Virus record (IMG/VR): IMGVR_UViG_3300025132_000260
Location: 1-25,818 of that record
Source of the DNA: a virus
DNA length: 25,818 nucleotides
Reading direction: 5' to 3' (one strand)
Under the pieces are notes generated by a model that searched no databases, was not told the DNA's origin, and saw only the letters and a list, made by a program, of their open reading frames with translations. Both the position numbers and the translations under genes were made by a program. Shown in pieces: positions 12,513 through 19,380 of the stretch; the stretch's first letter is position 1; the number at the start of each line of letters is the position of its first letter.

Positions 12513-12658
12513 TTACCTTGCCCTCGATATTTTTTATAGTTGCTTTTTGTATTTTTATTCATGGTAGAGAAAGCAACATTACCTCTACCTTGACTTGTCT
12601 TTTTACCTCGAACACCTGTTGCAGGAACATGTTCAGTCTTTCGCCATATCTTGGCCAT
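12509..12658 (-). CDS. Small basic 49-aa protein
   Basis: I choose the ATG at 12658 because CCAGGAG lies seven bases upstream; an earlier in-frame start would overlap the preceding gene further. The product is highly basic (MAKIWRKTEHVPATGVRGKK...RGQGK), Gly/Lys/Arg-rich and probably disordered or nucleic-acid binding. Similar tiny conserved proteins occur in other phages, without a known role to my knowledge. Confidence 0.65.
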   Translation of the reverse strand: MAKIWRKTEHVPATGVRGKKTSQGRGNVAFSTMNKNTKSNYKKYRGQGK

Positions 12659-12845
12659 ATTTAAACTCCTGGTTTTTTTTGCGTTTATCTTTATGTTCAA
12701 TTACAACTCTATCACTTTCATAGGTTGTTTGAAAATAGTTTTCATCTTTAGTTTTATGAAGATATAAACTTTTAACTCGTTTATCTTTTTCTTCTTCAGT
12801 TAAACTATCTCTGCGTTTTTGCACATCTTTTAAAAATTCTGTCAT
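12633..12845 (-). CDS. Hypothetical 70-aa Lys/Glu-rich protein
   Basis: A 70-residue highly charged helical protein (MTEFLKDVQKRRDSLTEEEK at the N-terminus). Its 3' end overlaps the next gene by 26 bp and its start overlaps the preceding stop by 4 bp. No motif recognised. Confidence 0.65.
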   Translation of the reverse strand: MTEFLKDVQKRRDSLTEEEKDKRVKSLYLHKTKDENYFQTTYESDRVVIEHKDKRKKNQEFKYGQDMAKD

Positions 12846-16829: not shown

Positions 16830-16862
16830 TGGCATATCTCGTGGTGGTCTGTCAAGCCCCCC
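16830..16862 (-). promoter_or_regulatory. Copy 1 of a duplicated TTGACA/GATATGCCA element
   Basis: Read on the plus strand: TGGCATATC, 10 bp, CTGTCAAGCCCCCC. On the minus strand it is a GC-rich run, TTGACAG, then GATATGCCA. A partner with the same blocks lies at 17238-17269. The best -10 for this copy is CACAAT, 18 bp after TTGACA. The stop codon of the 109-aa gene lies inside TTGACA. Likely a promoter and/or operator facing left. Confidence 0.5.
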
Positions 16863-17181
16863 ATCTTAAACCTTCCATTGGTAATGCATAGACACATTCC
16901 CATGGATTATTACCTAATGGATTATACTTTAAATCTTTAGCCCTTAGATTAACTTTAGTTAAACCAGGCATTAAAGTAAATGGTAAACAGGTTGTATGTC
17001 TTGGAGATTGTGAGGTATCAGTAATTTCTGATATAAACAAATCATTCTCGCAATCTTGATTATACTTCTTAGCTTTGTTTAAATACTTAGTATAGTTTTT
17101 TGATTTAACCTTAACCACGCTTTCAGTTTCTCTAAAACCATGCTCGTTAAAGTTTTTATATGTATATGTTATAATTAACAT
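16852..17181 (-). CDS. Hypothetical 109-aa protein at the head of the leftward arm
   Basis: The ATG at 17181 has AGGAG seven bases upstream, so I prefer it to a TTG 27 codons earlier that lies in the promoter element. The product has a basic, beta-rich N-terminal half (MLIITYTYKNFNEHGF) and a C-terminal part with PLGNNPWECVYALP. It stands alone between two copies of the same promoter-like element, which suggests separate, tightly controlled expression, as for a phage regulator. No DNA-binding motif is recognised. Confidence 0.7.
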   Translation of the reverse strand: MLIITYTYKNFNEHGFRETESVVKVKSKNYTKYLNKAKKYNQDCENDLFISEITDTSQSPRHTTCLPFTLMPGLTKVNLRAKDLKYNPLGNNPWECVYALPMEGLRWGA

Positions 17182-17237
17182 GTTGTCTCCTATTTTAATT
17201 ATGCAGCTACTGTCTCTTTCGCTACCTTTTCCTAGCA

Positions 17238-17269
17238 TGGCATATCCCCATAATTCTGTCAAGCACCCC
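17238..17269 (-). promoter_or_regulatory. Copy 2 of the TTGACA/GATATGCCA element, upstream of the 109-aa gene
   Basis: Plus strand: TGGCATATC, 9 bp, CTGTCAAGCACCCC. The minus-strand TTGACA is at 17262-17257. A -10 with 17-bp spacing would be CATGCT, a poor match. The two copies are nearly identical in their outer blocks while the middle differs, which points to protein binding at the blocks. It precedes the start at 17181 by about 55-80 bp. Confidence 0.5.
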
Positions 17270-17362
17270 TCGAAAAGCCCACAACCACAAGGCTTTGCGA
17301 GGTTTTGCGTAGTGTTTATACTGCCCAGATTTAACTAACTTGTATTAAACACTCTGTATAAT

Positions 17363-17499
17363 GCATTCTCCTGCTCATGTTTTTGTGGCCTAGGTTTAAT
17401 GAAAAAAAATAAAAAACGCATTCTCGTTTATATAATCTAATTCCAGGAGTTTAACCAAATTGCATTCTCGTTTAATTATTCTTAATCCGGTGGTTTAAC
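17363..17499 (+). repeat. Three copies of a 37-bp repeat (GCATTCTC-N24-TTTAA)
   Basis: Copies start at 17363, 17418 and 17462. In each, GCATTCTC is followed at exactly +32 by TTTAA. Copies 2 and 3 also share GTTTA after the first block and GTTTAAC at the end, about 30 of 38 positions. The start-to-start distances are 55 and 44 bp. Iteron- or operator-like layout at the divergent control region. Confidence 0.75.
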
Positions 17500-17600
17500 T
17501 GCAGCCGATTATTTACAAAGCAAATTAAAACATTGGGGTATAAGTGGCGGCCAAAAGGTAAATTTGCAATTTTTTTGCAATGGGTGTATTTTGGGGCAAT

Positions 17601-17662: not shown

Positions 17663-18001
17663 ATGAAAAAATCTACTAATAAAACAGCTTTCAAAAAAAA
17701 GCTACTTAGTAAAGGCGATACTAACCAAATTTATAGAAATATAAATTCTGTTGCGTATCATTTGGCAAATAATACTGTTCAAGCTTCAAGCGAAGCAAAG
17801 GCGAGAACAAAAAAGTATTATGAGCTTCAACGAGCAATAAGAACTTTATTTGTTGCTTATGATAGCGATAAAAAAAGAGCTACTTTAATTGCTGATACTT
17901 CTAAGCTTGATACATGGTTAAAAGCGAAAAAAATACCATCAACACTTTTAAGCAAAGCTAAAAACAAAGCAAAGCCTAAAAGCAACGCAAAGAGAATATA
18001 A
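17663..18001 (+). CDS. Hypothetical 112-aa lysine-rich protein, first rightward gene
   Basis: A 112-residue very basic protein. Residues 1-22 are Lys-rich, residues 25-75 helical, and the tail (SKAKNKAKPKSNAKRI) Lys/Ala-rich as in histone-like tails, suggesting nucleic-acid binding. No Shine-Dalgarno is visible before the ATG (GACTTTAAAAT precedes it). It forms a two-gene rightward operon with the next gene, closed by the terminator at 18285. Its place next to the repeats and palindrome would suit a regulator; function not recognised. Confidence 0.72.
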   Translation: MKKSTNKTAFKKKLLSKGDTNQIYRNINSVAYHLANNTVQASSEAKARTKKYYELQRAIRTLFVAYDSDKKRATLIADTSKLDTWLKAKKIPSTLLSKAKNKAKPKSNAKRI

Positions 18002-18003
18002 TC

Positions 18004-18261
18004 ATGATTGATATGGAAAAAACTGTCATGATGAATTTTGATGACATTGATATGTATTTGACTGTTAAACAATCAAGCTTGAATTTTTATGTTGCCCTCG
18101 TAAGTGTTTTTACAATGGGTAAGAAAAGCATTGAGAGAGCACAGTCAATTGATAGCGAAGTTTTTAATTGCTATGAACACGCAAGGCGACACGCTCTTAG
18201 CATGATTAGAAAACATGGTGCATATGAAAGTGTCGAATTTAAAGGAGGTGCTACACATTAA
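18004..18261 (+). CDS. Hypothetical 85-aa protein
   Basis: Starts two bases after the preceding stop; an ATG three codons later is an alternative. The product is helical with a mildly hydrophobic middle (LNFYVALVSVFTMG, residues 26-39) and His/Arg-rich later part (CYEHARRHALSMIRKHG). Last gene before a strong terminator. No family recognised. Confidence 0.68.
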   Translation: MIDMEKTVMMNFDDIDMYLTVKQSSLNFYVALVSVFTMGKKSIERAQSIDSEVFNCYEHARRHALSMIRKHGAYESVEFKGGATH

Positions 18262-18284: not shown

Positions 18285-18313
18285 AAAGGGTGCTTTTTAG
18301 TGCCCTTTTTTTT
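18285..18313 (+). terminator. Rho-independent terminator of the two-gene rightward operon
   Basis: AAAGGG (18285-18290) pairs with CCCTTT (18303-18308) around a 12-base segment; the T-run spans 18306-18313 (eight T). It separates the first two rightward genes from the packaging module. Confidence 0.85.
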
Positions 18314-18373: not shown

Positions 18374-18545
18374 CTAGGGTGTAGTTAACACTCAATCATT
18401 CATATGTTGTTTAATGTTTGCTGAGAGAACCTATCAAGAACACTTAAACGCCCATAGGTCAATTAGTTATGCATAGACTGTAAAGCTCTATGAAGTGCTA
18501 CAAATTAAATTACTAGCTCAACAGCTTTTATTTTTGAATGTTAAG

Positions 18546-18606
18546 ACTTCAAAAACTTTTCAGAACTTCAAAAACTTTTCAGAACTTAATGATTAGATTT
18601 TTGAAG
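18546..18606. repeat. 19-bp tandem duplication with 9-bp inverted repeat
   Basis: ACTTCAAAAACTTTTCAGA is present twice in tandem (18546-18564, 18565-18583), with four bases of a third copy. CTTCAAAAA of copy 2 (18566-18574) is the exact reverse complement of TTTTTGAAG at 18598-18606. Confidence 0.75.
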
Positions 18607-18822
18607 CTTGAAAAGTCTATAAAATTTTTACAGTTTAAGATGGCGGCCTATAAAAAACTGTCAAGATTAAAAAGTCTTGATAGGGTGGCAGGAACACCAC
18701 CCCCGGTCCCCCATATATATACTAAATCTCATACATTTCCAGAGATTTTCAAGTGTTAAGTAGGAGGTTTGGTCGGGTTCGTGGAACTTTAAAGACTATA
18801 AAGTACGTGGAAGGAGGTCCTG

Positions 18823-18930
18823 GTGTTTGTTACTATGCAAACCCTGCGGCACCTAAAGGTATTATATAGAAATATTCTTAATTTGTCAAGACCTTTAAGG
18901 AATATATTCGTTTTTTTACAAAAAACTTGA
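18823..18930 (+). CDS. Possible 35-aa small basic/hydrophobic protein
   Basis: A GTG frame of 35 codons preceded at five bases by AAGGAGG. The product begins VFVTMQTLRHLKVLYRNI and is basic and aliphatic. The TGA stop is inside the -35 hexamer of the terS promoter, as seen for two other genes in this window. Non-ATG start and short length make this tentative. Confidence 0.3.
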   Translation: MFVTMQTLRHLKVLYRNILNLSRPLRNIFVFLQKT

Positions 18931-18954
18931 CAAAATTCTAAAATACTGTATAAT
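18927..18954 (+). promoter_or_regulatory. Sigma70 promoter of the packaging module
   Basis: TTGACA (18927-18932), a 16-bp spacer, TATAAT (18949-18954): both hexamers are perfect. The ATG of terS follows six bases after the -10, so transcription should begin at or next to the start codon. Confidence 0.82.
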
Positions 18955-18960
18955 AAAGGT

Positions 18961-19380
18961 ATGCAGAACTTACCCTCAGAACGTAAATTAACAGAAAAAC
19001 AACAAAGTTTTCTGAATAATCTTATTGAAACTAAGGGTGACTTAAAACTTTCCGCAGAACTTGCAGGATACTCCGGCAATCACTATCAAGTACTCAAGAG
19101 TTTAAAAGAAGAAGTAGTAGATTTAGCCCAAAACGTACTTGCAAGGGAAGCACCTAAAGCAGCTTTTAAGTTAGTAGAGGTTATGACAGCAGATAGTTCT
19201 ATTCCTCAAGCTAATGTTAAACTTCAAGCTGCTCAAACGATTCTAGACCGTGTAGGTTTAGGTAAACAAGACAGAGTAGAAGTAAATCACAACGTAAAAG
19301 GTGGTATATTTATTCTACCAGAAAAAGAAACTATTGATTTAAAAGCTGAAGATGGAGATTATGAAGAGGTATCTACATAA
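18961..19380 (+). CDS. Terminase small subunit (putative)
   Basis: A 139-residue protein. Residues 9-45 form a helix-turn-helix-like N-terminus (LTEKQQSFLNNLIETKGDLK ... AELAGYSG) as in many phage small terminases. Residues 45-95 are helical (oligomerisation), and the acidic C-terminus would contact TerL. Small terminases recognise pac/cos DNA. Position as first gene of the packaging block, ahead of TerL and portal, supports the assignment; six small genes and TerL follow. The start seems nearly leaderless. Confidence 0.8.
   Translation: MQNLPSERKLTEKQQSFLNNLIETKGDLKLSAELAGYSGNHYQVLKSLKEEVVDLAQNVLAREAPKAAFKLVEVMTADSSIPQANVKLQAAQTILDRVGLGKQDRVEVNHNVKGGIFILPEKETIDLKAEDGDYEEVST

Follow-up and report, generated by a model that had tools for sequence, protein, structure and literature searches.

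Tandem direct repeats occupy the divergent control region of a relative of HTVC103P-type pelagiphages, between two promoter-like sequences and upstream of a gene of a small protein family (family A), and diverged tandem repeats recur at the same position in relatives that carry family A. The array is real, and its position is conserved; probably, if only just, it acts in cis by offering multiple sites to a regulator of the two divergent promoters, a reading that we draw from sequence comparison. Arrays of operators or iterons are already known from regions between divergent promoters, and no description of the present array was found in the literature searched.

The window (the whole stretch of DNA analyzed, 25,818 nucleotides) is a 25.8-kb virus contig and a fragment of an HTVC103P-type pelagiphage relative. 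Its terminase large subunit shares 66 to 69% identity with those of HTVC115P, HTVC103P, and HTVC104P, and the virus is, judged by its sequence, an ocean phage akin to SAR11-infecting phages; according to the literature, the HTVC103P-type group has HMO-2011-like packaging genes (PMC8528129). Rfam and tRNA searches gave nothing above threshold and, as regards a reading of the region as an integration site, no integrase was seen and no tRNA is present in the window. Genes run leftward on one side of the array and rightward on the other. From translations read by eye, we take the leftward arm to encode replication functions (presumably a pol A-type polymerase and a T7-like primase-helicase) and ribonucleotide reductase; the rightward arm encodes terminase and portal. 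The first-pass annotation had placed the array between the two transcription arms, and it is indeed confined to the divergent control region, where it comprises the following.

17324 to 17334, plus strand: extra (fourth) right-half box CCCAGATTTAA, preceding unit 1
17363 to 17399, plus strand: array unit 1, GCATTCTC-N24-TTTAA with a diverged interior and a CCTAGGTTTAA box
17418 to 17454, plus strand: array unit 2, with CATTCT[C/G]GTTTATATA and TCC[A/G]GGA-N-TTTAAC in common with the units of relatives L134 and L139
17462 to 17498, plus strand: array unit 3, 44 bp past unit 2

The three reported copies of GCATTCTC-N24-TTTAA are exact at these positions, with half-sites 32 bp apart (start to start) in each. 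The pattern was found in 0 of 100 dinucleotide shuffles and has no further match in the 25.8-kb record; the concern that it might be equally frequent elsewhere was unfounded, as it is confined to the control region within the window. Interiors diverge as described, copy 1 far more so than copies 2 and 3, which match each other as a direct repeat over 43 nt with 77% identity (17413 to 17455 and 17457 to 17499). The right half-site extends beyond the one first noted, reading CC-N-GG-(N)-(N)-TTTAA(C), and the stretch of the 17324 box (CCGGGTATAACTAACTTGTCTTAAACAC in relatives) is the most conserved part. Copies 1 and 2 are separated by a 55-bp step, identical to that between two units in L133, L136, and L141. 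Folded as single-stranded DNA, the array was unremarkable (z about 0), and it therefore probably functions in double-stranded form. Viral contigs contained 120 scattered single matches to exact GCATTCTC-N24-GTTTAA, which were uninformative, and the strongest matches to the right-half motif outside arrays, in the leftward arm, resemble ribosome-binding sites (CCAGGAGTTTAAA) and were treated as coincidence.

Loci of relatives were collected through homologs of two genes, the terminase small subunit gene and the one at 16852, and arrays were detected by autocorrelation over 480 bp preceding the 17663 gene or its positional counterpart; a strict-cutoff repeat scan missed known arrays. Family A occupies this position in 18 loci including the window (several are near-duplicates, leaving about 12 lineages by our own grouping), and another small protein, family B, occupies it in 24 other loci. 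Tandem arrays were present in 18/18 family A loci, with 0 of 200 local shuffles matching the score. At 60 shuffles each, 18/18 family A loci, 5/24 family B loci, and 12/127 random windows passed; because the shuffles preserve local composition and not dinucleotides, the rate of 9% among background windows is the better standard of comparison. Family A arrays begin roughly 230 to 325 bp upstream of the family A gene and have periods of 38 to 61 bp. Two of three family A loci added later also have arrays (L228, a duplicate type, and L240, L194-like), and the third, a diverged locus (L242, 30% identity), has none. The first-pass annotation had proposed that related phages be searched for its pattern and regarded absence from close relatives as damaging; the exact pattern is absent, but diverged tandem units keep the same place, so in substance the element persists. 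Arrays of this kind might share no function and represent a duplication-prone, fast-drifting spacer between two promoters, in keeping with their high divergence and with variation in both copy number and period. That account is quite improbable, however, given that every family A lineage of the initial sample has an array, that arrays are rare at the same place in family B loci, and that a common motif was recovered across lineages.

Family B proteins (about 95 amino acids [aa], invariant CPKDIK-GT--GH) replace family A upstream of the terminase small subunit gene, terS (L163, 1726 to 2007, and 23 others). They have no PHROG function and their model has no fold match; profile comparison of families A and B as possible homologs gave a pairwise E value of 0.008 and a probability of 5%.

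The fixed internal geometry claimed for the repeats holds within a clade and fails between clades. Left and right elements stand 31 to 32 bp apart in nine units (window, L133, L136, and L141); counted from the same base, the spacing is 27 to 28 bp for L134, L139, and L150, and L209 has 33 bp. As spacing is constant in each clade only, a general rule is unsupported. Unit sequence varies across lineages. Window unit 2 and the L134 units nevertheless share the CATTCT[C/G]GTTTATATA stretch, a 16-mer found in only 51 stretches of the whole viral collection, so the array types are related. Motif searching of 12 representatives recovered TCCNGGNNTTTAAC with a score (303, against a shuffle maximum of 244) that is inflated by sequence relatedness and within-locus repeats. 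Between L133 and L134, bins flanking the array are mostly 93 to 100% identical and the array itself 35 to 60%, which suggests that the whole array was exchanged in one piece. Of all features of these loci, such block replacement in phages otherwise nearly identical is the one least expected.

The surroundings of the array were annotated as follows.

16852 to 17181, minus strand: first gene of the leftward arm, 109 aa, ATG at 17181, Shine-Dalgarno AGGAG
17234 to 17262, minus strand: P_L, leftward sigma-70-like promoter, TTGACA-17-CATGCT, same or similar in most family A relatives
17268 to 17302, no strand assigned: dyad CCTCG-a-AAAGCC-N11-GGCTTT-g-CGAGG, immediately upstream of P_L, DNA fold z = -3.1
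17564 to 17592, plus strand: P_R, rightward promoter, TTGCAA-17-TATTTT, weak (8/12) in the window
17663 to 18001, plus strand: family A gene, 112 aa, pI 10.4, net charge +21
18004 to 18261, plus strand: 85-aa gene, second in the short rightward operon, with a terminator-like hairpin after it (18285 to 18308)

The array sits between P_L and P_R and overlaps neither (these promoters are sequence matches only). P_R was placed by alignment and scores under the scan threshold in the window; its counterpart in L150 is TTGACA-18-TATAAT. The nearest unit lies about 65 bp from the P_R -35 element and 100 bp from that of P_L, distances greater than simple promoter occlusion or class I/II activation would allow. 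For the 16852 gene, ATG 17181, with its Shine-Dalgarno sequence, is a more likely start than 17262. The dyad has an 11-nt loop, and in L150 its inner sequence is inverted with the dyad still present.

Phage-specific promoters, an earlier suggestion, would make the units a tandem series from which a phage RNA polymerase, or a modified one of the host, transcribes; this reading fits two-block sites with a spacing constant per clade and AT-rich interiors. We consider it very improbable, since a block gap of 27 to 33 bp is incompatible with sigma-70 geometry, separate sigma-70-like promoters stand on both sides of the array, and units occur nowhere else: a 39-kb relative has none outside its control region, and there are none at other transcription units of the window or of this relative (both incomplete).

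We infer protein binding, a regulatory role, and the binder's identity along the following lines. A DNA-binding regulator would bind the array units, each made up of a left element, (G)CA[T/A]TC[T/C]-N-GT, and a right element, CCNGG-N(1-2)-TTTAA(C), between divergent host-type (sigma-70) promoters, of which P_L would start the leftward replication and nucleotide-metabolism arm and P_R the short operon that contains family A. Serial occupancy of the sites, with the promoter cores uncovered, would set the P_L/P_R balance from upstream, the regulator working as an activator or by formation of a nucleoprotein complex. The sites are repeated beyond chance similarity in the control region only, and the divergent promoters that flank them (P_L conserved; P_R weak here and perfect in L150) also argue for a regulatory array. 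The family A protein, which is small, very basic, and encoded directly downstream, is a candidate binder and may regulate itself.

Family A gave no significant match in Pfam, PHROGs, PDB, or BFVD, and its predicted structure, although fairly confident (pLDDT 82), had no fold match and no recognizable DNA-binding fold. The family A proteins of L133 and L134 are about 88% identical and their arrays differ, and in general family A proteins with about 88 to 90% identity accompany different arrays, so family A specificity does not track array type unless the shared core alone is read; the terminase small subunit and the 16852 protein likewise do not track it. When the leftward arms of three phages were compared (type I L294, type II L293, and the window), a 70-aa protein (window 12633 to 12845) followed array type, with 77% identity within a type versus about 36 to 41% between types, and its neighbors in L294 and L293 were 98 to 100% identical. 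With three phages and several mosaic breaks in the comparison, this covarying candidate is a lead only.

The chief rival to a regulatory array is a replication origin, in which the repeats would be iterons for an initiator, beside an AT-rich melting stretch and the dyad, with replication running outward. Iteron origins (lambda ori and iteron plasmids) resemble this locus in their tandem direct repeats, AT-rich stretch, and nearby dyad, and the fast-changing alleles in near-identical phages resemble incompatibility-driven iteron divergence. Cumulative GC skew of the window also reaches its minimum at about 17 to 18 kb, but this signal is confounded because gene direction changes at that same point. 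One of the least stable 80-mers of the whole locus adjoins the array in L134, L148, L194, and L202, and L139 likewise has an AT-rich melting region beside its repeats; an unusually unstable stretch of this kind accompanies the array in about half of lineages. For the window, as for L136, L150, L159, and L161, stability is lowest at the P_R leader and not adjacent to the array. The T7 counterparts of the replication genes seen need no iteron-binding initiator, and no initiator gene was found among the neighbors in Pfam or PHROGs, where several neighbors are matchless and half of the genome is absent from the record. An origin is, in our judgment, somewhat unlikely.

Known switches offer closer parallels to a regulatory array in some respects than in others. 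The phi29 p4 sites are inverted repeats near promoters, and its promoter A3 drives late genes, whereas the units here are direct repeats and P_R would drive a short operon ending before terS. The phi29 switch region (A2c/A2b and A3, with p4 and p6) is, like the present one, a multi-site region between divergent host-polymerase promoters, at which p6 complexes help p4 to repress A2b/A2c and activate A3 (PMC10899789). Its regulator is small and phage encoded, as is the candidate here, but family A has no sequence or fold link to known proteins. Lambdoid O_R/O_L are alike in having several similar sites between divergent promoters and a regulator gene next door. The lambda operators, at 17 bp, are partial palindromes and overlap their promoters, in contrast to direct units of about 37 bp clear of both promoters and to a locus in which no repressor was found. 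HTVC103P, HTVC104P, and HTVC115P share with the window a divergent layout about the same point but have no family A and, by unit profile, no array; family A and any similar control region were absent from the isolated phages searched.

Lambda cosB contains R sites, which three repeats upstream of terS recall, and the array could accordingly be read as a pac or cosB-like packaging site to which the terminase small subunit (gene at 18961) binds. This is extremely unlikely: terminase small subunits are about 90 to 97% identical across phages with different array types, and a far better conserved noncoding block stands directly before terS.

That block (18540 to 18856; for example, TTTAACACTTGAAAAT) is conserved in 10/10 aligned loci, more than the array is, and may alternatively itself be a packaging site. 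Between it and terS, a perfect leftward sigma-70-type promoter (18889 to 18861, TTGACA-17-TATAAT) stands back to back with a perfect rightward one (18927 to 18954, TTGACA-16-TATAAT), the pair lying within 18853 to 18961; the latter stops immediately short of the terS start codon (ATG), and terS may therefore have a leaderless mRNA. Similar promoter pairs were seen by eye before terS in HTVC103P and HTVC115P. Together with a terminator-like hairpin (18366 to 18343), the leftward promoter would yield a noncoding RNA of about 0.5 kb. Contigs carrying terS (18/54 among L138 to L211) end less than 900 bp upstream of it, near local direct repeats; these clustered ends were considered as genome ends, and assembly breaks at the local repeats are more likely.

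Something of a long shot is that pelagiphages otherwise almost identical exchange entire arrays that differ in specificity, while the flanks stay conserved, as a fast-switching control or origin cassette at which family A, a new small basic family, acts. If so, this is perhaps because shared arrays would make coinfecting phages interfere. No description of gene timing or replication start in HTVC103P-type pelagiphage relatives was found in the literature searched, and a positionally conserved array between the two transcription arms provides a concrete target for such study. Its rapid turnover between near-identical phages points to selection on the specificity of the control region.
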